64,000 nt of DNA from Bacteroides caccae (GTDB lineage: Bacteria; Bacteroidota; Bacteroidia; Bacteroidales; Bacteroidaceae): contig NZ_CP022412.2 of NCBI RefSeq assembly GCF_002222615.2, forward strand, positions 1,798,001 through 1,862,000, written 5' to 3'. Below, one piece after another: positions 12,124 through 59,667 of this stretch (position 1 is its first letter; each line of letters starts with the position of its first letter). Both the position numbers and the translations under genes were made by a program. The notes under the pieces are model-generated. The model saw nothing but the letters and a program-made list of their open reading frames with translations, was not told the DNA's origin and did not search any database.

Positions 12124-14124
12124 TTATTGTTTTTTCTTTTTCTTCAGTTCCTCTGCAATTCTCCATTGTAACGCAGCTTCCACTTCCTTTCCGGCTTTCA
12201 GCAAAGCGTCTCCAAAAAGTTCGTGTGCACCGGCGTGTTCCGGTTTCAGACTTGTAGCCTTATCCAGATCGGCGATTGCACCTTCTGTGTTTTCTGTTTT
12301 CAACCGGAGTTTTCCCCGGTTATAGACAGCTTTAAAATTTGCCGGATGAAGGTTTACTGCGGTATTAAAGCAATTTTCAGCGTCGAAATAATCTTTATTA
12401 TTGAATAAAGTAATTCCTTTACGTATCCATGCGTCTATGTAGTTTGGATCGAGGCTGAGCGCTTTATCGTAGTTGGCAAGGGCAGCACGTATATCATGTG
12501 CTTGGGTGATACATTCGTTTCCCATTAACAGATACTCATGGGCGTATTGGCGTAGGCGTTCCTGTTGTTCCCGCATCTGTTCCTTGAGTTTTTTATTCTG
12601 TTCTTTCAGGGTGTTGATAATGCCGAGTTTTCGGCGAATCAGACGGCGGGGAACAGGTTTTTCAATATCATAGCGGGAATGGATGGCACGGAAGAATTGT
12701 TCCAGACATTCCTCCATATCACCTTTATTGAAAGCGCGGGCGGCTGCGGCATATTGCACATCGGCCTGTGCCTGTTTCAATGCCTTGTCAATGGCTTGCC
12801 GGTTATTAAATCGTCCGGCGAAGTTGACGATTTCCGGACGGACGAAAATATCTGCCCGGTTAATAGGCTTTTTAAGTTGGATACCATCCAGAGAAGTACA
12901 ACGGCTGAGTGCGACATACGCTTGTCCACCGGCAAATACTCCTCCAGTGAAGTCGATTACCACCCGGCTGAAAGTCAGGCCCTGGCTCTTATGAACTGTA
13001 ATTGCCCAAGCCAACCGGATAGGATATTGAGTGAAACTACCTAATACTTCTTCCTCGATCTCTTTCGTTTTTTCGTTGTAGCGATAACGGATATTGCGCC
13101 ATGAATCCCGTTTAACGTCACATTCTTTCCCGTCATCAGTGATAACGTATATCGTTTCTTCTTCTTCATCAATACCGGCAATGACGCCAATAGTGCCATT
13201 TACCCAACGACGGTCAAAGTCATTCTTGATAAAGATAATTTGTGCACCGGGTTTTAGCACTAGCTCTTGTGAGGTGGGTAAACTACTTTCGGGAAAATCT
13301 CCTTCGATAACTCCTTCAAAAGTAATCGATTCTCCCGGAAGCTCGGCCAGTTTTTTTTCGTTGATTGAATCTACCGTATCTCTTCGGGTAGCAAGCGTGA
13401 TATACATATCTGCTTCCGATTCTTCAATCTGGCTTCCATATCGGGTATTCAACAGTTGGAGGTCGGCTGCTCCGGCAGTATTAGTACGAATGTGGTCAAG
13501 TACACCGACAAAAACCGGATCAGTCTGCCGGTAAACCTTTTGCAGTTCGATAGAAACTAAATCTATCTGACCGAATACTCTTGCTGAGAAAAAGTAAGGA
13601 GTAGGATAGAAACGGTTCAGTATTTCCCGTTCATCATTCTTCACGACAGGTTCCAATTGGAAAACGTCGCCTACCAATAGTAACTGTTTTCCGCCGAAAG
13701 GTTCGCGCAGATTATGAGAATATACTCGTAAGATGCGGTCGATTGCATCAATGATATCCGCCCGTACCATGGAAATTTCGTCAATGATGACCAGTTCTAT
13801 CTGTTCCAATAATTTGCGGTGCGGCTTCGTATATTTGAAGAACTCATGGATACGGCCGCGTTGCAGACTTAAATTTGGATCGTCCGGCAATAGCGGATAA
13901 AAAGGGAGTTTGAAGAAACTATGCATCGTACTTCCTCCGGCATTGATTGCAGCAATTCCGGTCGGAGCAAGTACAACATATTTCTTTTTGGTATGCTCGC
14001 AGACATAACGCAGAAATGTAGATTTTCCCGTACCCGCTTTCCCGGTCAGAAAGACCGACTGTCGGGTGTACTGAATCAGATTCAGTGCATCCTGAAATGC
14101 AGCATTGTCAGTGTCTACGCTCAT
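12124..14124 (-). CDS. PIF1-like helicase/AAA ATPase with C-terminal TPR repeats
   Basis: 666 residues from the ATG at 14124; a TTG at 14145 would add seven residues but overlaps the preceding stop codon. The SF1 helicase core has Walker A LTGKAGTGKST (about 26-36), VVLAPTGIAAINAGGSTMHSFF (motif Ia), Walker B LVIIDEISM, and near the middle AWAITVHKSQGLTFSRVVID with AYVALSRCTSLDGI, the late helicase motifs typical of PIF1/RecD-like enzymes. The last 150 residues hold a coiled-coil (LKEQNKKLKEQMREQQERLRQ is the start) and about three TPR units ending in NYIDAWIRKGITLFNNKDYF and FKAVYNRGKLRLK. It should unwind DNA 5'-3'; the TPR tail presumably recruits a protein partner. Confidence 0.85.
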   Translation of the reverse strand: MSVDTDNAAFQDALNLIQYTRQSVFLTGKAGTGKSTFLRYVCEHTKKKYVVLAPTGIAAINAGGSTMHSFFKLPFYPLLPDDPNLSLQRGRIHEFFKYTKPHRKLLEQIELVIIDEISMVRADIIDAIDRILRVYSHNLREPFGGKQLLLVGDVFQLEPVVKNDEREILNRFYPTPYFFSARVFGQIDLVSIELQKVYRQTDPVFVGVLDHIRTNTAGAADLQLLNTRYGSQIEESEADMYITLATRRDTVDSINEKKLAELPGESITFEGVIEGDFPESSLPTSQELVLKPGAQIIFIKNDFDRRWVNGTIGVIAGIDEEEETIYVITDDGKECDVKRDSWRNIRYRYNEKTKEIEEEVLGSFTQYPIRLAWAITVHKSQGLTFSRVVIDFTGGVFAGGQAYVALSRCTSLDGIQLKKPINRADIFVRPEIVNFAGRFNNRQAIDKALKQAQADVQYAAAARAFNKGDMEECLEQFFRAIHSRYDIEKPVPRRLIRRKLGIINTLKEQNKKLKEQMREQQERLRQYAHEYLLMGNECITQAHDIRAALANYDKALSLDPNYIDAWIRKGITLFNNKDYFDAENCFNTAVNLHPANFKAVYNRGKLRLKTENTEGAIADLDKATSLKPEHAGAHELFGDALLKAGKEVEAALQWRIAEELKKKKKQ

Positions 14125-14141
14125 CTTCGTATTTGCTTGTC

Positions 14142-14927
14142 TCAAATAATTCCGAAATGTTTCATTGCTTTGCTGATTCCGTCTTCGTCAATCGGAGCCG
14201 TCACATAGTCGGCGGCAGCTTTCACATCCTCTTTGGCTTGTCCCATGGCAATTCCGATAGCAGCATGGCGAAGCATACTGATGTCATTGCCTCCGTCACC
14301 GAATGCCATAGTCTCTTCCAGTTTCATATCGAAGTAACGGATGATTTTGTCAATGCCTTTCTGCTTGGTATCCCCTTTGGCCGTAATATCGGCAAATGCC
14401 GGGAACCAACGCCCTACTTCACAAGTAGGGATAGACGGACGGATCTCCTTTTCTTCTTCTTCCGTGATAAAAGGTGTCATCTGGATCACCTCCTTGCTTG
14501 TTGCTTCCTCGAACGAAACAGTCGGAATAACATTCACGTGCAGGAAATCATAGAATATCTTTTTTACCATGTCGTTAGGCTGGCAAACGGATATGTTGTG
14601 TTCCTCCACAAAGATACACGGTACTCCTTTTTTCTCGCAGAAAGCAGCCATTGCTTTTACTTCCTCCTGTGGAATAGCGCTTTTGTAAATAACTTGTTCT
14701 CCGACAAAACAATAGGCTCCGTTCATGGTTATATATCCATCAATGAGATTTCTGTCTTGCAATTCGGAAAGGTTGTTGATAATGGCTTTCGGGCGTCCGG
14801 TAGCGATAAATATCTTGAGCCCTTTTGCGTGGGCTGCCTCCAATGCCTCAATGGTAGAAGGCGGGATACGGTGAGTTTCAAAACTGACCAGCGTTCCGTC
14901 TATGTCAAAAAATAGAGCTTTCGTCAT
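14142..14927 (-). CDS. Cof-type HAD-IIB family phosphatase
   Basis: 261 residues. HAD motif I is FFDIDGTLVSF (Asp nucleophile at residues 8/10), motif II FIATGRP, motif III is the Lys in TAKGDTKQKGIDKII and motif IV MAFGDGGNDISML. The large cap between motifs II and III is of type IIB. Such enzymes dephosphorylate sugar phosphates or cofactors such as FMN and pyridoxal-P; the substrate cannot be told from sequence. It heads an operon with the helicase, 17 bp apart. Confidence 0.9.
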   Translation of the reverse strand: MTKALFFDIDGTLVSFETHRIPPSTIEALEAAHAKGLKIFIATGRPKAIINNLSELQDRNLIDGYITMNGAYCFVGEQVIYKSAIPQEEVKAMAAFCEKKGVPCIFVEEHNISVCQPNDMVKKIFYDFLHVNVIPTVSFEEATSKEVIQMTPFITEEEEKEIRPSIPTCEVGRWFPAFADITAKGDTKQKGIDKIIRYFDMKLEETMAFGDGGNDISMLRHAAIGIAMGQAKEDVKAAADYVTAPIDEDGISKAMKHFGII

Positions 14928-14949
14928 AAATTCCTTTTTGAATTGAGTA

Positions 14950-14957
14950 CAAATGTA
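14950..14957 (-). promoter_or_regulatory. -7 promoter element (TACATTTG) for the HAD/helicase operon
   Basis: TACATTTG on the minus strand matches TAnnTTTG and lies 22 bp before the HAD start. Confidence 0.45.
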
Positions 14958-15290
14958 CTACTTTTATTCCAAAAGTTAAAATATAACCATATATTTTATA
15001 TATAATTCTGATAATCAGCTATTTGTTTAGGGTGTGCCACCTTTAATCCTGAAAAATAACCATAATAATTAACCCTGAAAATTAATCATTATGCTGAATT
15101 ATGAGTAAATATTTTTTTGATTTTAGACCGGATTTTAATCTGTTTAATTCGGATACAAAGAGAGCGACTACAATTTATTATACTGTAGTTTATTTTATCT
15201 GTAGTATGGTATATGATGGTCTAAGATGGAAATTGTTGCAATAAAAAACAAAAAAAACATGTTTAAACGTTTTTAATACTATATTTTTTC

Positions 15291-15298
15291 TAATTTTG
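15291..15298 (+). promoter_or_regulatory. -7 promoter element (TAATTTTG) for the DUF3575 operon
   Basis: TAATTTTG fits TAnnTTTG. The implied 5' leader is about 80 nt, longer than for most genes here, and contains GGACAGTAGCCCCTTTTTG. Confidence 0.4.
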
Positions 15299-15385
15299 TG
15301 GCTTTCTGCCCAAGGAGTGTATAAATTGGACAGTAGCCCCTTTTTGTGGGGAAATATTGAGTGGGAAATATTTAGTGGGAAATAA

Positions 15386-15946
15386 ATGATGGTATATGTG
15401 ATGAGAAATGGTCGCAGGGTAATAGTTGCGTTATCATTTCTGTTATTATGTTGTGGTGTACATGTGCACGCACAACGGGTGGCTGTGAAGACAAATGCAT
15501 TGGGTTGGCTGACCGCCAGTCCGAATGTAGAAGCAGAATTTGTATTGGGTAGTCATGTCTCCTTGAACATAGGGATTGCTGCGAATCCAATCAGTACAGA
15601 CAACTTTAAAACGACTTTCACGCATTTTCAGCCTGAAGTTCGTTACTGGCTAAATCGTCCGATGGTGAGCCATTTTCTTGGAATCACCGCTTTCGTGAAT
15701 AATTTTAATATGATGGTAAAAGATGTGCATCACAAAGGTGATGCATACGCCGCCGGTTTGACCTATGGATATGTATGGGTGCTGGGCGATCATTGGAATA
15801 TCGAAGCAACTGCCGGAGTGGGTGTGTTGCGTTACCGTCAGTTCAAGTATGATAAGGGTATTCCGAAACCGGATGTGGTCAACGATAGTAAGACCACCAT
15901 TGCACCTGTTAAACTGGGGGTATCCTTTGTGTATATTATTCGATAA
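15386..15946 (+). CDS. DUF3575-family outer-envelope protein
   Basis: 186 residues from the first ATG; the Met at 15401 (MRNGRRVIVAL) is an alternative start giving a cleaner signal peptide that ends in HVHAQ. The mature part reads VAVKTNALGWLTASPNVEAEF, then alternating beta strands (HFQPEVRYWLNRP, YAAGLTYGYVWVLGDHWNIEATAGVGVLRYRQF) ending in an aromatic VSFVYIIR, the DUF3575 pattern. This is likely a small outer-membrane beta-barrel. In Bacteroidales such proteins often sit in loci for surface appendages, but no fimbrillin gene is seen here. It is first of three genes spaced 24-26 bp apart. Confidence 0.75.
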   Translation: MMVYVMRNGRRVIVALSFLLLCCGVHVHAQRVAVKTNALGWLTASPNVEAEFVLGSHVSLNIGIAANPISTDNFKTTFTHFQPEVRYWLNRPMVSHFLGITAFVNNFNMMVKDVHHKGDAYAAGLTYGYVWVLGDHWNIEATAGVGVLRYRQFKYDKGIPKPDVVNDSKTTIAPVKLGVSFVYIIR

Positions 15947-15972
15947 CGAACATTAGCTAGTCAGAAAAGAGA

Positions 15973-18006
15973 ATGAAAATCAATTTGAAACGTGATAGAT
16001 TAACAGGTATACTTCTCGTGGCGATGATGTTCGTCGGCATGAATGTATCCGCCCAACGGATCCGTGTGCAGGGGCATATCACAAACCCGCAGGGAAAAAG
16101 TGTTCCGAATGTGAATGTGCTGAATCCGGTCAATGACGAACGTATAGAAATGTCCGACGAGGATGGCCGTTACAGTGTCTTAGTTGAGAAAAACGGCTCG
16201 TTGAAGTTTACATGTGTCGGTTATGAAGACAAAACAGTGAAGGTGGCAGGAAAGCAGATTTTGAATGTAGTATTGAAAGATGCCGTCATCGAGCTGAACG
16301 AAGTAACGATTACTTCCAAAGTGAAGGACAAAGTGATTCCGGAACCTACGGACATCGAAATCAAGGGTAATTATTTCCATCTGAAAACCCGTGTCCCGGT
16401 GCCTAAGGAGATGTTTAACTCGCATCGTCGCTTGGTATTGCAGCCTTCCATTTATGATGTGACACTGAAAAAGCGTCTGTTGATGCGTCCTGTTGTATTC
16501 GATGGGGATACTTATGATACAACGCAAAATCGAATGTACGATTATGATATAGATAAAGACCCTTTACATGATTACATCCGTGTGAAAACGACTTCTTCAC
16601 GCAAGGGGGATATTATTGCTTACCATGATTCTATCTATATAGAATATCTGCAACATGACTACCGTGCAGATGTGCATTTGGCAATGGAGAATTACAGGAA
16701 TATCATTTATCGTGACTCTTTCTCCATTGCACGCGGAACGGTCAACCCACTTCGTTTTTTGGAGTATAAATTCTCCGCTTTCAGCCTGACGGATGAGAAA
16801 TATCTTCCGAAACCTGTGATGCAGTTGCGGGATACGAAAGGCGAGGTAAACTTGACCTTTTTGGTAGGTAAAGCCGACCTGGATGATAAGAATCCACAGA
16901 ATCAAGTGGAACTAAACCGATTGAATCAGGAATTACGTAGTATTGAGACGAACCCGGATGCCTCTTTGAAGAGTTTTCATATTACGGGGGTGGCTTCGCC
17001 GGACGGTTCTTACGAGACGAATCTTCGTCTGGCAAAATTGCGTACGGATAAAGCCCTGGGACGTATACTGGCACAACTGGACCCGGAAACACGTAAACTG
17101 TTGGAAGTGAAATCGGATGCATCGGTTGCCTCCTGGAAGGAGGTAGCAGAATTGCTGAAAAAAAACTCCAAGCCGGAACTGGCTAAAGAAGTAGAGGATT
17201 TAATCAAACAATACGCAGCTACTCCTCACCGATTGAATGGGGTCTTGAAATCGAAACCTTTCTACAAGGAACTTGCGGCTACTTATTTGCCTAAATTGAG
17301 AAAGGTGCAATATACCTATGGTTATTCAATTTTCCGTTCTTTAACGGACTACGAGATTGGAGAACTTTACAGAAAGAATCCGAAGGAACTTACCCGTTTC
17401 GAATATTACCGTATGATTACGACGGCAAAAACTCCCGACGAGAGGGAAAAGTATTGTAGGGAGGCTCTTGAACTTTATGGTAACTTTACGTATGCAGCCA
17501 ATGAACTGGCAGTAGTAACGATACAGAAAGATACTCCGGATTCAAATATTCTCGAACCGTTTGTCAGTAAATCGGCACCGGTGGAGTTATTATCCAATCA
17601 GGCTATTGCCTTGCTGCATGAAGGCAAATATACAAAAGCAGATTCAGTCTTGACATTGGTTCCCGAAGAAGTGGTTTCTGAAGATTTGCAGGCCATCGTT
17701 CAGGCATTGGCCGGTTATTATAATGATGCTTTCGAGAAGGTGGCGGCTACTAGTCCTTTCAATGAGGTGGTGATGCTATTGGCAATGAAGAAAAATCAGG
17801 AGGCATGGGATAAGATTTCTACCATGGAGGTAGAGACCGCCCGCGAATATTATATAAAAGCGATTGCCGCCAACCGCCTGGAGAAAATAGGTGATGCGAT
17901 TATGAGCATTGAGAAGGCCCTTGAACTTGATCCTTCCTTATTGGAAGTAGCGAAGGTGGATGGTGATATTATTGACTTGCTGCCAGAAGAGCAGAAAATT
18001 AAATAA
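15973..18006 (+). CDS. Envelope protein: carboxypeptidase-regulatory-like, OmpA-like and TPR regions
   Basis: 677 residues with a signal peptide ending NVSAQ (residue 28). Residues 29-112 form a carboxypeptidase-regulatory-like beta sandwich (RVQGHITNPQGKSVPNVNVLNP, GRYSVLVEKNGSLKFTCVGYEDKTV, LNEVTITSKV), as in TonB-dependent receptors but with no barrel attached. Residues about 290-365 contain FHITGVASPDGSYETNLRLA, which resembles the peptidoglycan-binding OmpA motif. The last 250 residues are helical TPR-like repeats ending in GDAIMSIEKALELDPS. It could tie an outer-membrane assembly to peptidoglycan. I do not recognise a named function. Confidence 0.65.
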   Translation: MKINLKRDRLTGILLVAMMFVGMNVSAQRIRVQGHITNPQGKSVPNVNVLNPVNDERIEMSDEDGRYSVLVEKNGSLKFTCVGYEDKTVKVAGKQILNVVLKDAVIELNEVTITSKVKDKVIPEPTDIEIKGNYFHLKTRVPVPKEMFNSHRRLVLQPSIYDVTLKKRLLMRPVVFDGDTYDTTQNRMYDYDIDKDPLHDYIRVKTTSSRKGDIIAYHDSIYIEYLQHDYRADVHLAMENYRNIIYRDSFSIARGTVNPLRFLEYKFSAFSLTDEKYLPKPVMQLRDTKGEVNLTFLVGKADLDDKNPQNQVELNRLNQELRSIETNPDASLKSFHITGVASPDGSYETNLRLAKLRTDKALGRILAQLDPETRKLLEVKSDASVASWKEVAELLKKNSKPELAKEVEDLIKQYAATPHRLNGVLKSKPFYKELAATYLPKLRKVQYTYGYSIFRSLTDYEIGELYRKNPKELTRFEYYRMITTAKTPDEREKYCREALELYGNFTYAANELAVVTIQKDTPDSNILEPFVSKSAPVELLSNQAIALLHEGKYTKADSVLTLVPEEVVSEDLQAIVQALAGYYNDAFEKVAATSPFNEVVMLLAMKKNQEAWDKISTMEVETAREYYIKAIAANRLEKIGDAIMSIEKALELDPSLLEVAKVDGDIIDLLPEEQKIK

Positions 18007-18030
18007 TGATATATACAACAAGAGTAAACG

Positions 18031-20397
18031 ATGAATATCTTCAGAATCAACAATAAATATGTAGCAGTGGCAATCTTCCTGATGCTTGCTGTTACCTTAC
18101 GGGCACAGGATTATGGTGCATTGCAATATATGTTACAGAAACGCCCTGCAAATGAAAAGTTCGAGAGTAATAGATTCAATGAACATCTCTTTTTCTCTGC
18201 CGGAATAGGACCATACAGCTTGTTAACAAGTGGAGATAGTCAGGATGGAATGGGAATGACCGCTCATCTCTTTATGGGAAAGTGGATTACTCCGGTTCAC
18301 GGACTTCGGATAGGGGTGAATTTGGGTTATCTGCCGTCGAGTATCTACGATTCTAAAATAAAAATGGGTGGCGGCAGCTTGGACTATTTGTTGAATATGT
18401 CCTCCCTGGCATACGGATACAATGCAAATCGTTGTTTTGAGTTAGTAGGGATTGCAGGTATAGAAGCCGGTTATTCTAAGGTGGGTGACAATAGCGATCG
18501 TTCCGAAAAGTATCCGGATTTGAAAGGTGGTGGTCAGCTTTATTATGGTGCTCATCTCGGTTTACAGGGAAATGTACGTCTTTCTTCTACATTGGATTTG
18601 TTTGTAGAGCCACGGATCGGATGGTATAATGACAGTTTTGCGTATACGGAAAATTGGAGAAACTATAAAATGGCTGGTTCAGTTCTGGTAGGTCTGACCT
18701 ATATGCCTGGTGCTCCAATGGGAACTAAGATACATTTCGATGGTTTCGATAATAGCTCCTTCCTGAATCATATGTTTATCTCTTTATCCGGTGGTATCAG
18801 TACACTGAAAGTTCCGGGAATCAAGAATACGATTAAAGGATTAGGTCCCCAGTTCTCTGCCGGAATCGGTAAATGGTTCAGTCCTTCTTCCGGCCTGCGT
18901 TTGTCCGGGACAGTTGGGTTTTCGGACACCCCTTCGGGCAGCGCAAGCGGTTACTTTAAACATGTTGATCTGCATGCTGACTATCTGTTGAATATCAATA
19001 ATGTTCTTTGGGGATATGATGAAGACAGAATATTTAGTCTGATCGGTATTGCCGGAGTTAATCTGGCAGGTACGAAAGGAGTGGATGAAACCGCCAAGTA
19101 TGCTCCGGGAATAGGAGTCGGTGTGCAGGGAAGTTTCCGTATCAACCGTTCTGTGGATTTATTTATAGAACCTCGCCTCAATGTGTATAGTAAGAGATAT
19201 GCAGGAGGTCGTGGAGTAGGTCGCAATACAGATCAGCTCAGAGAGTTGAATTTTGGCTTGACTTATCATACGATTGACCGTGCAGCACGTCCGAAGAACA
19301 GATTCTCAAGCAATCACATCGCAGACAATCTGTTTATGACTTCGGGAATTGGTGTGCAAATGTTCTTGAATAAGACGAACCTTGAAAACTTTGGTTCTTT
19401 AGGTCCGCAGGCTTCTGTTTCTATAGGTAAGTGGTTGAGCCCTTATTCCGGTTTGCGCCTCGTGGGTACAGGTGGATTTTTTACGAACTATGTAGTTCCA
19501 GGAAGTGTTAAAGCGGGCAAACTTAGACATGCCAGCGTCAGTGGCAGTCTTGATTACTTGTGGGGCATAATGTCTACCATGAGTGGATACAATCCCGATC
19601 GTATCTTTGATTTAATAGGTTCGGTAGGTATCAACCTTGCTTATACTTCCAAATCAGACCATAAATTCCAACCGGGTGTTAATGCAAGCATACAGGGATT
19701 ATGGCATGTGAATGATTTTCTCGGTTTGTACATTGAACCGCAGATTCGCTTTTATGGAGATAAATTTATTGAAGGTAATCTGGGCTTTATGCAGAAAGAC
19801 GTGATGGTAGGAGTCAATGCAGGTTTTCACTATCGCTTTGTTCCTTATTCAAAAACAGCCAATCGTAGCGTGTTTGGTCTGGATGACAAGCGTTACTTCA
19901 TTTCCGGTGCACTTGGATTGGGTAGCTTGCTTGTAGCCAACAAAGACTTGGTGAAGAATGCAGGTGTAGAAGCAAAGGGAAGCATTGGTAAATGGTACAC
20001 TCCGTTATCTGCATGGCGGGCAAATGGAACAATTATGTACAAGGCCAAAACGTCGTCAAAGATGAATCTCCATTATGCTGGTTTGGGTATGGATTATATG
20101 ATAAGTCTGGCCACATTGGCAAAAGGATACAGCCCCAATCATGTGATAGATGTTGTTCCTTTTATGGGAGTTACGGCCGGACTGGTACGCCGTTATGGTA
20201 AGTTCCGAGCAGTGCCGGGACTGGATGCTGGTGTGCAGGTAAAACTGAAGGTGGCTTCTTCTTTGTATCTGTACGCCGAACCTAAAATCGGTATCCGTAC
20301 CGATACATACGATGGCTCCGAACAGGGAAGACCTGACCGTGTAACTTCCATGGTAGGTGGATTATTATACAGATTCAAAATGCCTACTTTTCAGTAA
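18031..20397 (+). CDS. Fourfold-repeat outer-membrane beta-rich protein, function unknown
   Basis: 788 residues. A signal peptide ends at RAQ (residue 26). The rest is four copies of one domain of about 165-180 residues, at roughly 50-225, 244-413, 430-603 and 619-782. Each copy has the same landmarks: a GKW(I/F/L/Y)(T/S)P turn (residues 83, 280, 466, 653), an (L)DYL/ADYLL strand, a GY(N/D/S)xxR/H segment, and an L(F/Y)(V/I/A)EP strand end (191, 378, 567, 748), then a closing strand ending in Y, H or RF. The spacing is 181-197 residues. The aromatic, alternating pattern suggests outer-membrane beta-barrel strands: either four small barrels or one very large one. It is the last gene of the operon and ends at a strong terminator. 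I know no named homologue. Confidence 0.7.
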   Translation: MNIFRINNKYVAVAIFLMLAVTLRAQDYGALQYMLQKRPANEKFESNRFNEHLFFSAGIGPYSLLTSGDSQDGMGMTAHLFMGKWITPVHGLRIGVNLGYLPSSIYDSKIKMGGGSLDYLLNMSSLAYGYNANRCFELVGIAGIEAGYSKVGDNSDRSEKYPDLKGGGQLYYGAHLGLQGNVRLSSTLDLFVEPRIGWYNDSFAYTENWRNYKMAGSVLVGLTYMPGAPMGTKIHFDGFDNSSFLNHMFISLSGGISTLKVPGIKNTIKGLGPQFSAGIGKWFSPSSGLRLSGTVGFSDTPSGSASGYFKHVDLHADYLLNINNVLWGYDEDRIFSLIGIAGVNLAGTKGVDETAKYAPGIGVGVQGSFRINRSVDLFIEPRLNVYSKRYAGGRGVGRNTDQLRELNFGLTYHTIDRAARPKNRFSSNHIADNLFMTSGIGVQMFLNKTNLENFGSLGPQASVSIGKWLSPYSGLRLVGTGGFFTNYVVPGSVKAGKLRHASVSGSLDYLWGIMSTMSGYNPDRIFDLIGSVGINLAYTSKSDHKFQPGVNASIQGLWHVNDFLGLYIEPQIRFYGDKFIEGNLGFMQKDVMVGVNAGFHYRFVPYSKTANRSVFGLDDKRYFISGALGLGSLLVANKDLVKNAGVEAKGSIGKWYTPLSAWRANGTIMYKAKTSSKMNLHYAGLGMDYMISLATLAKGYSPNHVIDVVPFMGVTAGLVRRYGKFRAVPGLDAGVQVKLKVASSLYLYAEPKIGIRTDTYDGSEQGRPDRVTSMVGGLLYRFKMPTFQ

Positions 20398-20704
20398 GAA
20401 AGAACTTTAATTTCTAGGTAAATCTCCTTTATTGTTCGTAATAGTCAATAAAGGAGATTTTTGCATTGGTTATTTCTTCTATATTTTCCGTTATCAGTTT
20501 GTTAACTTGGGTGGAATAGAAAGTGTAATGAATAATAATTTTTCCCTTTTTCGAACTATACAATTCAATGGAAATCTCTATTTTTGTTCCCGGTTAGCAA
20601 AATGGGTTAAGTTCTGATTTAATTCTATGTAAGTGATTAATAATCAGTATTAATTATAAATATGCTACTTCTGTCTCACATAATATAAAAAAACATCATG
20701 CAGT
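20398..20704. other. Intergenic region before the MalY/PatB-like gene
   Basis: The 307 bp contain the terminator at 20421-20463 and then AT-rich DNA. TACTTCTG (20666-20673), one base away from TAnnTTTG, lies 32 bp before the next start and may be its promoter. Nothing else is supported. Confidence 0.5.
20421..20463 (+). terminator. Rho-independent terminator of the DUF3575 operon
   Basis: A perfect 14-bp stem (20421-20434 with 20446-20459) with an 11-nt loop is followed by TTTTT. It lies 24 bp after the stop of the repeat protein. Confidence 0.88.
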
Positions 20705-22537: not shown

Positions 22538-23140
22538 ATGTTGATAGAACCTGACATAGAACTGACGGTAGATGAGGATATAGTGCTGTGGCATTCTATC
22601 AGTAGAGGAGATAAGAAAGCCTTCGATGACTTTTTTATGAAGTACTATACCTTATTATATGGGTATAGCCGTTATTATGTGTCTGCAGAAGACGCCAAAG
22701 AAGTGTTGCAGGAATTGATGATGTGGTTATGGGAAAACAGGGCGACTTTTGTGCCGGATACGACTTCTTCTTTACGACAATATCTGATCACTTCTGTCAA
22801 ACGTAGGTGCTTCAATGTACTTCGGAGACAAGAAAAGGAAATACTTGAAGAATCATCGTGGTTTGAGCAAGAGCAGGATGATTATTATGAGTTTATAGAT
22901 TTATCCGTAGTCAATGAACTGCAATCACTTATCCAAGAGGCTATTGACGAATTGCCTTCTTCCTACCGCCAAGCTTTTACTATGCACCGTTTTCAGGACA
23001 AAACCCGTCAAGAGATAGCTGAGACATTGCAAGTGTCTATTAAAACTGTTGATTACCGCATTCAGCAGTCTCTCAAAATTCTGCGGGAGAGATTGAAAGA
23101 TTATCTTCCCATATTAGCTATCTACGGTTTTATATTATAA
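22538..23140 (+). CDS. ECF-type RNA polymerase sigma factor (PUL activator)
   Basis: 200 residues. Region 2 is at about 20-85 (ISRGDKKAFDDFFMKYYTLLYGYSRYY, SAEDAKEVLQELMMWLW) and region 4 at about 140-190 (ELPSSYRQAFTMHRFQDKTRQEIAETLQVSIKTVDYRIQQSLKIL), the helix-turn-helix that reads the -35 box. It should direct transcription of the downstream susC operon when released by the FecR-like anti-sigma factor encoded 124 bp downstream. The pair, with a SusC carrying an STN domain, is the sigma/anti-sigma control module seen mainly in Bacteroides PULs for host glycans. Confidence 0.93.
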   Translation: MLIEPDIELTVDEDIVLWHSISRGDKKAFDDFFMKYYTLLYGYSRYYVSAEDAKEVLQELMMWLWENRATFVPDTTSSLRQYLITSVKRRCFNVLRRQEKEILEESSWFEQEQDDYYEFIDLSVVNELQSLIQEAIDELPSSYRQAFTMHRFQDKTRQEIAETLQVSIKTVDYRIQQSLKILRERLKDYLPILAIYGFIL

Positions 23141-53082: not shown

Positions 53083-54702
53083 TTATTTGAGGCTCAGAAT
53101 CTGTCCTTTTGCACCCAGTTCTTCATAAACTTTTCCGTCGACAGTCAGGTTTTTGGCATTCTTGACATTTAATATATTGTTACCCTTTGCCGATTCTACA
53201 TAAACGTTTTCTAAAGTAACTCCGTCTACCTGGCTGATAACAACTCCATCCGTAGCTTCCGTCATAACAACGTTTTTAACCGTCACATTGCTGATTGGCA
53301 TTTCCGGAAGACCGTTGAAGAACATCGCACGCCCCGAACCTCTGCAAACAATATTTGAAATATGAATATTACGGAATGCCGGAGTTTCTTCCGTTACCGG
53401 AGGAATGGCAGTCTTCATACGATTCAGCAAATCTTCTTCCGATTCTTCTCCTGCACCTTTTCCGCCGTAGAACAAATCGAACAATAGCGGCTCGTTCGGT
53501 ATATTAATCATGTTGATGTTATTAATGTAGATGTTTTCTACCACACCGCCACGTCCGCGAGTGCTCTTGAAGCGCAAACCTACATCTGTACCCATGAATG
53601 TGCAGTCTTCTACATAGATATTCTTCACGCCTCCGGACATCTCGCTACCTACCACGAATCCTCCATGCCCGTGCAGTACTGTATTATTCTTCACAATCAC
53701 ATTCTGACAAGGTTCTCCGCGACGGCGACCATCTTCGTCTTTACCCGACTTGATACAAATCGCGTCATCTCCCGCATCAAATACGCTGTTGATAATCAGC
53801 GCATTCTTGCAAGATTCCAAATCAATCGCGTCACCATTCTGTGAGTACCATGGATTGATAACCATAATATTATTAACTGTGAAATCTTCGCAGGACAACG
53901 GATGCAGACACCAGCTCGGAGAGTTCTTGAAAGTTACGCCTTCCAACAACACTTTCTTGCTTTTCACAATGCTGAGCAACACCGGACGCAACCACGGACG
54001 GATTTCAGCCCATTCTTCATCTGTATTAATCCCTTCGGGTACGTTGAAATCTTTGCAAGCCATAGCCCCTTTCAGCGAACCTGCGGTGGGATACCATATC
54101 TCCTGTTTCTCATCCAGGACACCGCCCGAATTGACCAGTTTCTTCCACTGTGAAGCAGTCAGTTTCTCTTTCTTCACCGGACGCCAGCAATCTCCGTTAC
54201 CATCAAACGTGCCATAGCCGGTGACAGCGATATTCTCCGCATTCCGTGCCGAGATCGGTGACTGGCAACGACGGGTTTCCAATCCTTCAAAAGAAGTGTC
54301 GATGATAGGATATGCTTCGAAGTCGCCTGTGAAAAGTACCAATGCATTCTGTTCTGTATAAAGATTCACATTACTCAGCAACTCGATAGGACCGGTCAAC
54401 CAGATACCTTCAGGGATAATCACTTTCCCCCCACCACGTTGGTTGACGTCTTTGATCGCATCATTGATCGCCTTTGTATTCAGGAATAATCCATCTCCTT
54501 TGGCTCCGAATTTTTCGATGTTTACCTCATAAGCAGGAAAAGCCGGTTGTTGCACTTCGGGCATTTCAAAAGGTAAATTCCGGTAAAGTGCGTCGCTTAT
54601 TGCGTTCTTGCTTACTGCATTCTCATTGGGTTGTTTACATCCCGAGATAAACGGCAAACAGCATACGGCTATCCAGAGGAGTCTTTTTGTCAATGTGTTC
54701 AT
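53083..54702 (-). CDS. GH28 polygalacturonase-type lipoprotein
   Basis: 539 residues, lipobox Cys22 (LPFISGC). The right-handed beta-helix starts NIEKFGAKGDGLFLNTKAIN. Catalytic signatures are NGDAID (Asp291), AGDDAICIKSG (Asp312/Asp313), GHGGFVVGSE (His346) and RFKSTRGRGG. These are the invariant residues of GH28, which hydrolyses galacturonan or rhamnogalacturonan. The anchoring suggests work at the outer membrane. It has its own promoter and terminator. Confidence 0.93.
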   Translation of the reverse strand: MNTLTKRLLWIAVCCLPFISGCKQPNENAVSKNAISDALYRNLPFEMPEVQQPAFPAYEVNIEKFGAKGDGLFLNTKAINDAIKDVNQRGGGKVIIPEGIWLTGPIELLSNVNLYTEQNALVLFTGDFEAYPIIDTSFEGLETRRCQSPISARNAENIAVTGYGTFDGNGDCWRPVKKEKLTASQWKKLVNSGGVLDEKQEIWYPTAGSLKGAMACKDFNVPEGINTDEEWAEIRPWLRPVLLSIVKSKKVLLEGVTFKNSPSWCLHPLSCEDFTVNNIMVINPWYSQNGDAIDLESCKNALIINSVFDAGDDAICIKSGKDEDGRRRGEPCQNVIVKNNTVLHGHGGFVVGSEMSGGVKNIYVEDCTFMGTDVGLRFKSTRGRGGVVENIYINNINMINIPNEPLLFDLFYGGKGAGEESEEDLLNRMKTAIPPVTEETPAFRNIHISNIVCRGSGRAMFFNGLPEMPISNVTVKNVVMTEATDGVVISQVDGVTLENVYVESAKGNNILNVKNAKNLTVDGKVYEELGAKGQILSLK

Positions 54703-54793
54703 TTAGTAATCTAATTCTATAGGGTTATACATCTATTGTTTTTCTTGGTATATTGTTGATATTAATAAGGATGATTTCATAATTCTTATGTCC

Positions 54794-54832
54794 CTCCGCA
54801 GGCGATCTTTCGCAGGCAGCCTGCCGGAGCGG
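54794..54832 (-). other. GC-rich hairpin in the GH28 leader
   Basis: On the minus strand TCCGGCAGGC pairs with GCCTGCGGA (one bulged G), enclosing a GC-rich loop. It is an island of high GC in AT-rich DNA and falls inside the predicted 5' leader of the GH28 mRNA. No U-run follows. Confidence 0.4.
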
Positions 54833-54906
54833 AATAAGACGAATTCATGTTAACCTAATTCTAACCTTAAATAAATATTATGAAAAAACCTCTTAATTAT
54901 CATTCG

Positions 54907-54914
54907 CAAAGATA
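54907..54914 (-). promoter_or_regulatory. -7 promoter element (TATCTTTG) for GH28
   Basis: An exact TAnnTTTG match on the minus strand, about 205 bp before the GH28 start. A closer match was not found. Confidence 0.4.
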
Positions 54915-55020
54915 GGTGGGAAACTTCAAGAGGATGTGGACTAATTGATAGATTACGTGTATTTTTTGTCATTTCTGTCTATTATTTGCACACATCTCGT
55001 GTTTTTATGCAGAAAGTTCC

Positions 55021-55028
55021 TATCTTTG
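55021..55028 (+). promoter_or_regulatory. -7 promoter element (TATCTTTG) for fabI
   Basis: An exact TAnnTTTG match 24 bp before the fabI start codon. Confidence 0.55.
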
Positions 55029-55052
55029 CACAAAATTTAACGATTAAAAGAT

Positions 55053-55910
55053 ATGAGTTATAACTTGTTGAAAGGAAAAAGAGGTATTATCTTCGGTGCT
55101 CTGAACGATCAGTCTATTGCCTGGAAAGTGGCAGAGCGTGCCGTAGAAGAAGGTGCAACAATTACATTATCAAATACTCCAATGGCTATCCGTATGGGAG
55201 AAGTCAATGCTTTAGCAGAGAAACTGAATTGCCAGATTGTTCCGGCAGATGCAACGAGCGTAGAGGATTTGTCGAATGTGTTTAAGACCTCAATGGATAT
55301 ACTGGGCGGACAAATTGATTTTGTGCTCCACTCTATCGGTATGTCTCCCAACGTACGCAAGAAACGTACTTATGATGACCTTGACTATGGAATGTTGGAT
55401 AAGACATTGGATATTTCAGCCGTTTCATTCCATAAAATGATTCAGTCGGCCAAGAAACTGAATGCGATTGCAGATTACGGTTCAATCGTTGCATTGAGCT
55501 ATGTGGCTGCACAGCGTACTTTCTACGGCTACAACGATATGGCAGATGCAAAAGCATTGCTGGAATCTATTGCACGCAGCTTCGGCTATATCTACGGACG
55601 CGAGCATAGTGTGCGTGTGAATACAATTTCACAGTCGCCTACATTCACTACTGCCGGTTCGGGCGTGAAAGGTATGGATAAGTTGTTCGACTTCGCCAAC
55701 CGTATGTCTCCGCTCGGAAATGCGACTGCCGATGAATGTGCAGATTATTGTATCGTGATGTTCTCCGATCTTACCCGTAAGGTGACTATGCAGAACCTTT
55801 TCCATGACGGTGGTTTCTCCAGCGTAGGTATGAGTCTTCGTGCAATGGCTACCTATGAGAAAGGGTTGGATGAATATATGGACGAAAATGGTAATATCAT
55901 TTACGGATAA
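55053..55910 (+). CDS. fabI: Enoyl-[acyl-carrier-protein] reductase (NADH)
   Basis: 285 residues. The divergent short-chain dehydrogenase fold of FabI is clear: LLKGKRGIIFGALNDQSIAW (nucleotide loop), DFVLHSIGMSPN, SIVALSYVAAQRTFYGYNDMADAKALLE with the active-site Tyr and the Lys seven residues on, then VRVNTISQSPTFTTAGSGVKG. It reduces enoyl-ACP in the last step of fatty-acid elongation. The GldB-like gene follows after 6 bp. Confidence 0.95.
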   Translation: MSYNLLKGKRGIIFGALNDQSIAWKVAERAVEEGATITLSNTPMAIRMGEVNALAEKLNCQIVPADATSVEDLSNVFKTSMDILGGQIDFVLHSIGMSPNVRKKRTYDDLDYGMLDKTLDISAVSFHKMIQSAKKLNAIADYGSIVALSYVAAQRTFYGYNDMADAKALLESIARSFGYIYGREHSVRVNTISQSPTFTTAGSGVKGMDKLFDFANRMSPLGNATADECADYCIVMFSDLTRKVTMQNLFHDGGFSSVGMSLRAMATYEKGLDEYMDENGNIIYG

Positions 55911-55916
55911 AAGATT

Positions 55917-56924
55917 ATGAAACTACGGATTTCTCTTCTTGTTATATTAATAAGTATGCTTTTCGCCTCCTGCGGGATAAGCACAGGAAAAGGTACGGAG
56001 CAGAAAGGAGAAGAGATTTCTGTTCTGAGATATGATAAGCTGTTGAACGAATATGTTCGTTCCAACAGCTTTTCTGCTATGCAGAAGCTGACAATGGATT
56101 ACCGCCAGCCGACGAAAATTCTGATTGAAGATGTACTGGCTATCGGTACCGTGAAAGACGATACCATTTTTCAGCGTCTTCAAAAATTCTATTCGGATAC
56201 TACGTTAGTCCGCTTAGTGAGTGACGTGGAAGCTAAGTTCCCCAATCTTGATGAAGTGGAGAAAGGACTGAATAAAGGATTCCGGAAACTGAAAAAAGAG
56301 GTCCCCGGTACGAAGGTGCCGTTTGTCTATTCGCAGATATCCGCATTCAACGAGTCTATTATTCTTGTAGACACGTTGCTCGGTATCAGCCTCGATAAAT
56401 ATATGGGGGAAGATTACCCGCTTTACAAACGCTTCTATTACGACTATCAATGCCGTTCAATGCGTCCCGAACGTATTGTGCCGGATTGTTTTGTATTCTA
56501 TCTCCTCGACCGTTACGGAATGAGTTATCACGAGGGGACTTGCCTGATTGACCTGATGATGCATTCCGGGAAGATCAATTATGTAGTGCAGCATTTGTTG
56601 GGTTATGATAATATTGGTGATGCAATCGGTTATTCGGATGAGGAAAATGCCTGGTGCAAGAAAAACGAAAAGGCTATTTGGGAACATATTTGTTCCAACG
56701 ATCATTTGCATGCGCGTGACCCGATGATCATCCGTTATTATATGAAACCTGCCCCTGCTGTTGAAATGCTGGGTGGACAAGCACCTGCATCAGTGGGTAT
56801 ATGGATAGGCGCACAGATTGTTTCTTCCTATATGAAAAAGCATAAGGATATGAAGCTGAAAGATTTGTTGGAATTTACCGACTATCACGAGATGTTGAAC
56901 CAGTCCGATTATCTGGCTTCCTGA
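55917..56924 (+). CDS. GldB-like lipoprotein
   Basis: 335 residues, lipobox Cys19 (MLFASC). ISVLRYDKLLNEYV, then YGMSYHEGTCLIDLMMHSGKINYVV and LGGQAPASVGIWIGAQIVSSYMK near the end are features of the GldB family (gliding-motility lipoprotein in Flavobacteria). Bacteroides do not glide, so the protein is probably a general envelope factor. It is in an operon with fabI. Confidence 0.8.
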   Translation: MKLRISLLVILISMLFASCGISTGKGTEQKGEEISVLRYDKLLNEYVRSNSFSAMQKLTMDYRQPTKILIEDVLAIGTVKDDTIFQRLQKFYSDTTLVRLVSDVEAKFPNLDEVEKGLNKGFRKLKKEVPGTKVPFVYSQISAFNESIILVDTLLGISLDKYMGEDYPLYKRFYYDYQCRSMRPERIVPDCFVFYLLDRYGMSYHEGTCLIDLMMHSGKINYVVQHLLGYDNIGDAIGYSDEENAWCKKNEKAIWEHICSNDHLHARDPMIIRYYMKPAPAVEMLGGQAPASVGIWIGAQIVSSYMKKHKDMKLKDLLEFTDYHEMLNQSDYLAS

Positions 56925-56967
56925 TAGCTTCATTGGCAATTTTAATTCTCAATTCTCAATTTTAAAA

Positions 56968-57672
56968 GTGGAAACTGCTCTCTATTTACTACCTGTGACT
57001 CTAGGTGATACACCTGTCGAAAAGGTTTTGCCTTCTTATAATAAGGAGATTATCTCCGGTATCCGGCATTTTATCGTTGAAGATATTCGTTCTGCCCGCC
57101 GTTTCTTGAAGAAAGTGGACCGGGAGATTGATATTGATGCGCTGACGTTCTACCTGTTGAACAAGCACACTTCACCTGAAGACATTTCCGGTTATCTGAA
57201 ACCTTTGGTTGGCGGTGCTTCTATGGGAGTGATTTCCGAAGCCGGTTGTCCGGCTGTTGCCGATCCGGGGGCGGATGTGGTTGCTATCGCGCAGCGCAAG
57301 AAGTTAAAGGTTGTTCCTTTGGTGGGACCTTCTTCGATCATTCTTTCCGTAATGGCTTCCGGCTTTAACGGACAGAGCTTCGCTTTTCATGGTTATCTGC
57401 CGATTGAACCGGACGAGCGTACCAAGAAATTAAAAACTTTGGAACAGCGGGCGTATTTCGAAAGCCAGACGCAGCTATTTATTGAGACGCCTTACCGCAA
57501 TCATAAGATGATAGAAGATATTTTGCAGAATTGCCGCCCGCAGACCAAACTTTGTATTGCTGCCAATATTACTTGTGAAGGAGAGTATATACAAACGCGT
57601 ACGGTGAAGGATTGGAAAGGACACGTGCCCGAACTGTCTAAGATTCCCTGTATTTTTCTCTTATACAAATAA
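56968..57672 (+). CDS. RsmI-like SAM-dependent methyltransferase
   Basis: 234 residues from a GTG start; no ATG fits. The tetrapyrrole-methylase fold of RsmI is seen in LYLLPVTLGDTP, GGASMGVISEAGCPAVADPGADVV, VVPLVGPSSIILSVMASGFNGQSFAFHGYLP (split by short loops) and FIETPYRNHKMIEDI. RsmI modifies C1402 of 16S rRNA. This is a shorter relative lacking the C-terminal RsmI extension, so the target may differ. Its 3' end overlaps the convergent gene by 35 bp. Confidence 0.82.
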   Translation: METALYLLPVTLGDTPVEKVLPSYNKEIISGIRHFIVEDIRSARRFLKKVDREIDIDALTFYLLNKHTSPEDISGYLKPLVGGASMGVISEAGCPAVADPGADVVAIAQRKKLKVVPLVGPSSIILSVMASGFNGQSFAFHGYLPIEPDERTKKLKTLEQRAYFESQTQLFIETPYRNHKMIEDILQNCRPQTKLCIAANITCEGEYIQTRTVKDWKGHVPELSKIPCIFLLYK

Positions 57673-58759
57673 CTCCTTTTAAATGTTCGTATTCATCTTC
57701 GAAACAACTGCTGAAGAATCTTTTGCCTAAGTTTTCTTCAATCTGCTTGAAACTCCATAACTTGCTGTTCTTGAAGCGGGGAGTACAGAGGATTGCATCG
57801 TCTTTTATTTCAGCGATAAACAGATAGATCAGCCGGTTGGTCACTTCATTTTCAAAGTGATAAACAATATTGAACTCCGGCTTTATATTTTCTTTGGCAT
57901 GTGGAAAAGCATTGGTTAATAAACGATTAACACCGTCGGACAAGGATTCGCCGAAACGCAGGTAACATTCCAGAGGAATATCTGTCTTATTCTTATCCAA
58001 AATAGCTGTCGAAGGCCGGTCGCAGAGAAATAACATCCCATGTGTGGAGATAGCAATTCTTATGACCGGATTGATATATGCATTCTTGTAATTGATCGCC
58101 TCTACTGCAGGAGTCTTTCCAATGACGTCTCCTTTGGTGTTGACGATAGGTACGTACTCAGTGTGAGACATCAAGTGATTGAAGAAGCGAATGGCAATCT
58201 GGTTAAATAGAATGCTCATGACAAAGACGATGGGTGGTAGCACTTTATAAAGAGTAAGTTTGCTGGTAGAACTTAACGGGTTCTGGCAGATTATCACGAT
58301 ACTGATGATAATAAAGTGAAGTATACCGAAAATCAGAGCAATTCGTGCAGAAACAACAGCAGCCTCCGCCCCTTGTGCATACAGGCGTTTGTTGCAGGAA
58401 CCTATCTGTTTCAAGAAATGGTTGATGAATCTTTTCTTGTGCATATAGAGTATTAGCATCGGTATGAGAATGCTCACTTCCAATGTGAGAGGAAGTGCAC
58501 CTTCAGGAACATAATCGCCCGGAATAAGGGCTGCCAGAGAAAGAAGAATCAGTATTCCTGCCGATATATAAAGAATAAAGTTGGGTAGCAGTATTCCTTT
58601 ACGATGATAAGAAAGATATACACCTACGATACCTATGACTGTACCGATGTAAATAGCCGTGTCTTGCGTTATAAATTCGCACAATAAAATGGAAATAATA
58701 ACGGGGATAAAACCCAGTGACATGTTAAATGCGGAAGAAAGTATTCCTTTATGATCCAT
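57638..58759 (-). CDS. Polytopic membrane protein with C-terminal NUDIX-like domain
   Basis: 373 residues. About seven hydrophobic segments occupy residues 10-205 (FIPVIISILLCEFIT, IYIGTVIGIVGVYLSY, FILYISAGILILLSLAALIP, others). From about 212 a soluble domain follows, VPIVNTKGDVIGKTPAVEAINY and RIAISTHGMLFLCDRP, which resembles NUDIX hydrolases of the isopentenyl-diphosphate isomerase type. The canonical NUDIX box is not visible (only GESLSDGVNRLL), so catalysis is doubtful. It is probably co-transcribed with lipA. Confidence 0.6.
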   Translation of the reverse strand: MDHKGILSSAFNMSLGFIPVIISILLCEFITQDTAIYIGTVIGIVGVYLSYHRKGILLPNFILYISAGILILLSLAALIPGDYVPEGALPLTLEVSILIPMLILYMHKKRFINHFLKQIGSCNKRLYAQGAEAAVVSARIALIFGILHFIIISIVIICQNPLSSTSKLTLYKVLPPIVFVMSILFNQIAIRFFNHLMSHTEYVPIVNTKGDVIGKTPAVEAINYKNAYINPVIRIAISTHGMLFLCDRPSTAILDKNKTDIPLECYLRFGESLSDGVNRLLTNAFPHAKENIKPEFNIVYHFENEVTNRLIYLFIAEIKDDAILCTPRFKNSKLWSFKQIEENLGKRFFSSCFEDEYEHLKGVICIREKYRES

Positions 58760-58818
58760 CTCTTTATGTTTATTTGTCGGTTCTATCTATAAAACAAATA
58801 GTGCTTGTGTTTTGTTTG

Positions 58819-59667
58819 CTAACGGATATGTTTCTCAGCATGGTAGGAGGAACGGACAAGAGGAGCACTCTCCACGATATTGAATCCTTTTTTTAAGCCG
58901 ATAATCTTGTATTTTGCAAATTGTTGCGGGGTCACATATTCGGCAACGGGATAATGCCGGTGACTGGGTTGCAGATATTGTCCTATGGTGAGTATCTGGC
59001 AACCGGCTGCCAGTAGATCATCCATAAGTGTTTCCACTTCTTCGGGAGTTTCTCCTAAACCAACCATAATGCCGCTTTTGGACTTTACTCCGTTTTTGGA
59101 AATGTGAGAGATCACTTGTAAACTGGTATCATAATTTGCTGCACTGCGTACCAGGGGACTGATACGCCGGACAGTTTCCATATTATGAGAAATAATATCG
59201 GGATGCGCTTCAATGACCTGATTTAGCAGTTCTGTCTTTCCTTGAAAATCAGGTATCAGTACTTCGATAGTCGTTTGAGGATTCAAACGCTTAATCTCCC
59301 GGATAGTACGTGCCCAATGCTCTGCTCCCAGGTCGGGAAGATCGTCACGGTCTACCGAGGTGATTACTGCATGATCCAGTTTCATCAATGCGATAGACTC
59401 CGCCACATGAACAGGTTCATTTACATCCAATGGGTACGGACGTCCGGTTTGGGTGTTGCAAAACTTGCAACTACGGGTACAGATATCTCCGCCAATCATA
59501 AATGTGGCAGTTCCCTTTCCCCAGCATTCCCCCATATTGGGGCAACGCCCACTGCTGCATATCGTATGCAGGCAGTGGGAGTCGACAATCCGTTTGGTTT
59601 CGGTGTATCGTTCGTTGGCACCGATATTGATTTTCAGCCATTCAGGCTTACGTACTCTGTCAGCCAT
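58819..59667 (-). CDS. lipA: Lipoyl synthase
   Basis: 282 residues. The auxiliary cluster is C-x4-C-x5-C in TICSSGRCPNMGEC and the radical SAM cluster is CTRSCKFC. LMKLDHAVITSVDRDDLPDLGA, GLGETPEEV and IGQYLQPSHRHYPVAEYVTPQQF are all LipA features, and the C-terminal PLVRSSYHAEK supplies the conserved RSSYHA. It inserts sulfur into octanoyl groups on lipoyl domains. Its ATG overlaps the DPP4 stop codon as TAATG. Confidence 0.95.
   Translation of the reverse strand: MADRVRKPEWLKINIGANERYTETKRIVDSHCLHTICSSGRCPNMGECWGKGTATFMIGGDICTRSCKFCNTQTGRPYPLDVNEPVHVAESIALMKLDHAVITSVDRDDLPDLGAEHWARTIREIKRLNPQTTIEVLIPDFQGKTELLNQVIEAHPDIISHNMETVRRISPLVRSAANYDTSLQVISHISKNGVKSKSGIMVGLGETPEEVETLMDDLLAAGCQILTIGQYLQPSHRHYPVAEYVTPQQFAKYKIIGLKKGFNIVESAPLVRSSYHAEKHIR

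Follow-up and report, generated by a model that had tools for sequence, protein, structure and literature searches.

Four predicted eight-stranded outer-membrane barrels in tandem on one chain, encoded in a three-gene operon of Bacteroides caccae

To our knowledge, nearly all known outer-membrane proteins carry one barrel per chain. A 2021 PNAS study by Solan, Pereira, Lupas, Kolodny and Ben-Tal reportedly found that among barrel combinations those with eight-stranded barrels prevail, and that they originate by lineage-specific amplification. What, then, is built by a 788-residue protein of the gut bacterium Bacteroides caccae in which a barrel-like unit is repeated four times, and what might it be for? 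Its gene (18031..20397, on the plus strand, as are all features given below in this form unless stated) lies in a 64,000-nucleotide stretch of contig NZ_CP022412.2, hereafter the window. It is the third gene of an operon, after a DUF3575 gene and a partner gene for a protein with NTE, OmpA-like and TPR domains. An earlier note, made from the sequence, had proposed a fourfold repeat forming either a string of four barrels or a single very large one; it had overlooked the operon. The open reading frame (ORF), a unit profile, a predicted model and profiles for five barrel types (A to E) together give the protein the architecture ABCD.

The repeat is marked by motifs that recur at regular places. 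GKWxxP lies at residues 83, 280, 466 and 653, DYL or DYM at 118, 317, 508 and 688, GYxxx[R/H] at 129, 328, 519 and 699, and L-[FY]-x-EP has its EP at 193, 380, 569 and 750, with 180–199 residues from one unit to the next. The note had given much the same motifs at 181–197 residues; the regularity held over a slightly wider range and the motifs stood where expected, except that copy 4 reads DYM and GY....H, and copies 1 and 2 LF-x-EP in place of LY-x-EP, the EP being present in all four. Pairwise BLAST detected all six pairs of units at 27–39% identity, with E values from 8e-30 (units 2 and 3) to 4e-14 (units 3 and 4), so the repeat is not due to chance. The unit profile, trained on the protein's own units and related ones, matched residues 49–225, 244–413, 430–603 and 619–782 at 151–185 bits, and the fourfold repeat was thus borne out by motifs, BLAST and profile alike. 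The protein had no Pfam match at E up to 10, and none of 177,635 PDB sequences matched profile A1 at E up to 1; among three homologues scanned, PF13505 (OMP_b-brl) scored above its cut-off in P0079 and P0115 and slightly below it in P0110 (P, L and G numbers are our handles for proteins, loci and genomes).

In the predicted model each unit has exactly eight strands, 32 in total, and each unit span on its own superposed on eight-stranded barrels of the PDB, in keeping with the earlier view of every copy as a small outer-membrane barrel. Barrel 1 (type A) has its strands between residues 53 and 224 (18187..18702); barrels 2 (type B), 3 (type C) and 4 (type D) span residues 248–413 (18772..19269), 434–602 (19330..19836) and 622–782 (19894..20376). 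The unit profile also found single-copy homologues, with one unit in each of the OmpA-type proteins L002, L003 and L008–L016; L002 and L003, which belong to the same genome as the window, consist of one barrel and an OmpA domain. No OmpA C-terminal domain was found on the 788-residue chain, either by Pfam or as a C-terminal alpha/beta domain in the model. Because the units have eight strands apiece, superpose span by span on known barrels, have stand-alone homologues and change in number as whole barrels (below), we conclude that the chain very probably forms, as modelled, four separate OmpA-type eight-stranded outer-membrane barrels, which favours the string over the single large barrel of the note.

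Topology was set by a periplasmic N-terminus, assumed from a probable signal peptide (residues 1–26, 18031..18108) that was read by eye and coincides with a model helix at residues 2–25 of low predicted local distance difference test score (pLDDT 44–56). The outward loops are then predicted to be short, at 2–15 residues, and they are the variable parts: the mean top-residue frequency was 0.39 in outward loops, 0.63 in periplasmic turns and 0.61 in strands (24 of 33 rows left after an 80% identity filter; Mann-Whitney p 2e-14, columns treated as independent), with loops L2 and L3 varying most. The conserved segment before barrel 1 (YGALxYMLQKRPANExF, residues 27–52, 18109..18186), periplasmic if this topology is right, has a mean of 0.63, equal to strand level. 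Q26, L35 and Q36 are invariant in 33 of 33 rows, as is the closing-strand Gly of every barrel.

Chains of this family hold three to eight barrels. Among 121 proteins (120 listed homologues and the query) we counted three units in 3, four in 45, five in 53, six in 12 and seven in 8; the three-unit proteins (470–575 residues) may be partial, and since candidates in the protein search were limited to 0.55–1.75 times the query length, the counts of short and very long chains are too low. Typing, which covered the 120 listed of 173 homologues, gave ABCDE 50 times, ABCD 42, ABBCDE 12, ABCDCDE 7, BCD 3 and BBCD 2, with AADDDAD, ABBAE, ABBCD and ABCCD once each. These order statistics are partly circular, because the 12 multi-barrel proteins whose units served to train the type profiles belong to the typed set as well; five calls (BBCD twice, ABBAE, ABBCD and ABCCD) are off-scheme, AADDDAD is poorly typed and the three BCD chains are short. 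In the named loci, the calls for 46 frames (L051 being split) were ABCDE 15, ACDE 11, ABCD 8, ABBCDE 6 and ABDE 2, with ABCDDDDE, ABCB, ABC and A once each. Loci L001–L045 gave ABCD 14, ABCDE 12, single 12, ABDE 4, ABC 2, AAC 1 and A 1; in the counts by locus the window's own gene is counted twice, and ACDE, ABDE and AAC are less sure calls in distant relatives. Six additional stretches had their units counted and left untyped, L130, L128 and L131 showing one or more weak matches (17–27 bits). The two ABC homologues L006 and L045, three-barrel proteins of 589 and 616 residues from other Bacteroidaceae, adjoin a partner gene.

The unit tree and the type profiles indicate that barrel types are position-specific, mostly in the order A-B-C-D-E. 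In a careful tree, from which two near-duplicate units of L072 (u5 and u6) had been removed beforehand, A, C and E each formed one side of a branch, and B and D each needed two changes; in a first tree the single OmpA barrels adjoined type E (92% by the Shimodaira-Hasegawa-like approximate likelihood ratio test, SH-aLRT; not starred). The window's fourth unit grouped in the trees with the fourth, not the last, units of five-barrel chains, and no remnant of a barrel E was recognised downstream, where unit-profile hits in three frames of 20398–20704 reached only −0.6 and −2.7 bits. Loci titled Bacteroides, Prevotella/Prevotellaceae, Barnesiella and Muribaculaceae share these position-specific types, which supports the description of the repeat in the note as an old, retained duplication, and from its spread we infer that ABCDE is ancestral. 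Longer forms have B doubled (ABBCDE), the C-D pair repeated (ABCDCDE) or D multiplied. Identity is 52–87% between the two C copies and 52–76% between the two D copies across all seven ABCDCDE chains; in the tree, copies from one chain pair with each other for both C and D in P0048 and for D in P0036, so the duplication was repeated or the copies were homogenised. L072 (7878–12473) has eight units in 1532 residues, three adjacent D units being 77–88% identical in protein and 79–88% in DNA; it comes from a yak-colon metagenome-assembled genome (MAG), and its D expansion is recent or an assembly effect.

The chain is encoded with two other proteins. Of 45 named loci, 42 contain all three genes together, and the remaining three are on short contigs. 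The first gene (15386..15946) encodes a DUF3575 protein of 186 residues (PF12099, E 6.6e-51). The second (15973..18006) encodes a partner of 677 residues, predicted to be periplasmic, with an NTE domain as at the SusC N-terminus (residues 28–108, 16054..16296), a beta domain, an OmpA-like domain (residues 282–453, 16816..17331) and a TPR-like superhelix (residues 455–677, 17335..18003). The OmpA-like domain keeps the Arg (R357) and has Ser342 at the canonical binding-Asp position in 32 of 32 rows; a paralogue of the partner with the same motif aligns to a canonical domain reading GYADSATG. We take these two positions to be those whose Asp and Arg hold diaminopimelate in E. coli OmpA, and judged by sequence the peptidoglycan-binding Asp and Arg pair appears to be incomplete in the partner. 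Bacteroides-type promoters read TTTG, 18–23 nt, TAnnTTTG; upstream of the DUF3575 gene there was no full match, only a lone TAATTTTG at 15291, and none of 13 inverted pairs had both arms in 14966–15385, as an invertible promoter would. A hairpin at 20420..20460 (perfect inverted repeat of 15 bp around an 11-nt loop), followed by a T run, is probably a transcription terminator; it came from the inverted-repeat search and was not among the results of a terminator scan.

Several variants of the operon were seen elsewhere. In L051 (5345–10768, B. reticulotermitis JCM 10512) the DUF3575 and multi-barrel genes are each split in two frames, by decay or sequencing error. Two Bacteroides genomes have a second, diverged three-gene operon (L127 2963–8929 and L132 2094–8064) with a five-barrel chain of 1011 residues. 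The operon is also present in L077 and L078, titled Lachnoclostridium and Clostridium MAG, probably mislabelled Bacteroidales bins.

The operon sits in a 5.68-kb insertion (14966..20648, no strand assigned) between HAD and aminotransferase genes, recognised by an empty site in relatives and a contrast in identity. At the DNA level, block 15188–20400 has an identity of 95.9% to B. xylanisolvens XB1A (L050), 88.9, 86.3 and 83.3% to L046, L047 and L048, 76.2% to L049 and, in part, 66.2% to L051. Two core stretches, 12124–14927 and 53083–59667, are 85% and 84% identical to XB1A (G646), 82–86% to seven other close genomes and, in pieces, 67–78% to three more distant ones. In four of seven relatives (G646, G644, G584 and G548; loci L120, L122, L125 and L126) the aminotransferase gene comes immediately after the HAD gene, and these four carry the operon elsewhere; G628 has 1.8 kb of other DNA between the two genes, and no aminotransferase match was found within the 10 kb taken from G602 and G711. 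On this evidence, the identity of 95.9% against a core of 84–85% to XB1A and the empty site in four relatives, the operon was most likely acquired by horizontal transfer. The junctions show an imperfect direct repeat (14942–14967 and 20649–20674, 19 of 26 by hand count on the alignment), and no integrase gene was read in the ORFs of the insert. The empty site holds TACTTTTG, which resembles a Bacteroides -7 promoter box.

Compared with the whole window, the 8-kb flanks of the relatives' operons gave no other match except DNA like 20397–20527, which reappears after a further 2.9 kb in L050 and 4.3 kb in L046. Other genes lie between the multi-barrel gene and this counterpart of the window's terminator region (L050 10587–13113, two frames, XB1A; L046 10565–14689, one frame of 1375 residues, Bacteroides sp. 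GM023), and the interval is possibly a cargo slot. Across the genus, 18 of 75 genomes, the window's own included, have a match at E 1e-60, and of 392 genomes sampled across the phylum 8 match at E 1e-10, several via single-barrel OmpA-type frames only. Spread by plasmids was rejected, as only 7 of 72,556 plasmid records match, two of them over at least 80% of the query. Further along the window, at 22538–23140, is an extracytoplasmic function (ECF) sigma factor of Bacteroidetes subfamily TIGR02985, followed by large same-strand genes.

The first two genes have relatives at pilus loci. In the window's genome there are eight DUF3575 genes, and the OmpA-like part of the partner has several paralogues; five of seven paralogue regions taken have a DUF3575 and OmpA/TPR pair. 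FimA, Fimbrillin_C or Mfa2 genes adjoin the pair at L108, L109, L110 and L111; at L107 (1021–3082) a DUF3575 and DUF3868/OmpA/TPR pair lies beside a lactate permease gene with no adjoining pilus gene. L112 has a TPR protein without any of the eight located DUF3575 genes, and L113 a DUF3575 frame. In the five pairs the partner's N-terminus matches DUF3868 (slightly under the cut-off in L111) and no NTE-type family is listed; DUF3868 is not among the 13 Pfam families listed for the window's partner at E up to 10. No fimbrillin or Mfa2 gene lies beside the window's pair, which is followed by the multi-barrel gene and then the aminotransferase gene. A search of the openly readable literature found no description of the role of the DUF3575/DUF3868 pair; in published work, DUF3868/DUF3575 genes BT4233-36 and Mfa1-like BT4227 belong to an iron stimulon (PMC10434189), and B. 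thetaiotaomicron OmpA-family loci are among phage-responsive, phase-variable loci (PMC12118408).

The four barrels, the ordered types, the conserved operon and the homology of the pair are supported by prediction and homology; complex formation, docking and a platform role we infer, as follows. Linkers of about 20 residues would connect four OmpA-type eight-stranded barrels. Each unit would begin and end in the periplasm and supply a closing strand of its own, in which a G-x-x-Y resembles a beta-signal, so that the β-barrel assembly machinery (BAM) could fold the barrels successively. An eight-stranded barrel is expected to lack an open pore, so the chain would not be a transporter. It would instead be a multivalent outer-membrane platform, with the conserved periplasmic turns and N-terminal segment docking the NTE/OmpA-like/TPR partner from the same operon, and the DUF3575 protein joining at the membrane, as the counterpart of the DUF3575 and OmpA/TPR pair at the type V pilus operons of the same genome, barrels replacing pilus genes. 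From their association as genes, the three proteins probably form one complex. We consider the four-barrel multivalent platform with a periplasmic partner, taken as a whole, the best explanation, with somewhat better than even confidence, and its role in anchoring or assembly a tentative proposal. It is a more doubtful step to see here a new envelope machine: a linear, ordered A–E array of unlike barrels, extended through extra copies of one barrel or of a two-barrel C-D cassette, with an NTE/OmpA/TPR scaffold holding it from the periplasm below, derived from or ancestral to a type V pilus head module and transferred among Bacteroides with its three genes as one unit.

Two rivals to the platform remain live. 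The chain may be a surface display array whose barrels hold variable outward loops as an adhesin, phage receptor or immune-facing surface, copy number raising avidity or diversity. This reading, on the whole improbable, would suit the variability of the outward loops (L2 and L3 above all), the duplication of single barrels (77–88% identical in L072) or of the C-D pair (52–87%), and a patchy distribution (18 of 75 genus genomes) with probable horizontal transfer, but the predicted loops are short, most chains keep a type order that pure diversification does not need, and the conserved periplasmic partner is left without explanation. We are similarly doubtful of the second, an accessory for assembly or secretion of a surface fibre or lipoprotein encoded elsewhere, as DUF3575 and DUF3868 pairs may be for type V pili; no pilus gene adjoins the window's operon, and none of the papers found says what the pair does in pilus loci. 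A single 32-stranded barrel, as one very large pore or secretion channel, is very unlikely. The strand total fits it, and the top Foldseek rows for the whole chain are large barrels, mostly TonB-dependent receptors; these rows have a template modelling (TM) score of only about 0.1 and a root-mean-square deviation of about 30, so there is no global match, and linkers of 19–23 residues interrupt the strand succession after every eight strands of the model. Since every unit matches closed eight-stranded barrels, and units occur alone and are gained or lost as wholes, a single closed sheet of all strands was rejected on the prediction. Identity with a type IX secretion system component of the PorT/SprT kind is scarcely credible and was rejected, its weak NCBIfam match (NF052311, 37.5 bits, two partial stretches) lying far under the curated cut-off of 125 bits and being explicable by a shared barrel fold, with a model of 239 positions that holds at most one barrel.

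A family with three to eight homologous barrels per chain, mostly in one order, would be a natural system in which to ask how BAM inserts one barrel after another from a chain with internal closing strands, and why barrels should be tethered to each other. Through its conservation and its kinship to the pilus-locus pairs, the operon offers a concrete way into two modules of Bacteroidales that are still uncharacterised, DUF3575 and the OmpA/TPR partner.

Multi-barrel outer-membrane chains are already a proposed class (Solan et al., 2021); both this proposal and the two-barrel GfcD are set out in PMC8592465 and PMC11494523. The statement in the note that no described family has this layout therefore holds in that no Pfam family matches and fails in that chains of this kind were published. 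The openly readable literature yielded no paper on this family and no description of the ordered array, its copy-number evolution or its operon, and the accessible part of PMC12045153 has nothing on the family; the ordered set, the copy-number evolution and the pilus-related operon look new. Among known systems, the Bacteroidales OmpA family (L002 and L003) shares the barrel unit, at 30–37% identity in matched stretches, and has GKWxTP and GYNxxR-like turns; there one barrel is fused to an OmpA C-terminal domain, whereas the window's chain has several barrels and no such domain, its OmpA-like domain being encoded by the neighbouring gene. YjbH/GfcD, discussed by papers citing Solan et al. (2021), likewise have several complete outer-membrane barrels per chain, but GfcD combines two unlike barrels of 12 and 13 strands, whereas the window's family has three to eight homologous eight-stranded ones, mostly in one type order and in a conserved operon. 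With the type V pilus (Fim/Mfa) pair the window shares a DUF3575 protein (31% identical to that of L107) and a partner with the SP[ED]G-type OmpA-like/TPR variant (26% over 207 residues to L107), but the window's partner has an NTE domain where the pilus-locus partner has DUF3868, and its operon has a multi-barrel gene in place of the pilus genes.
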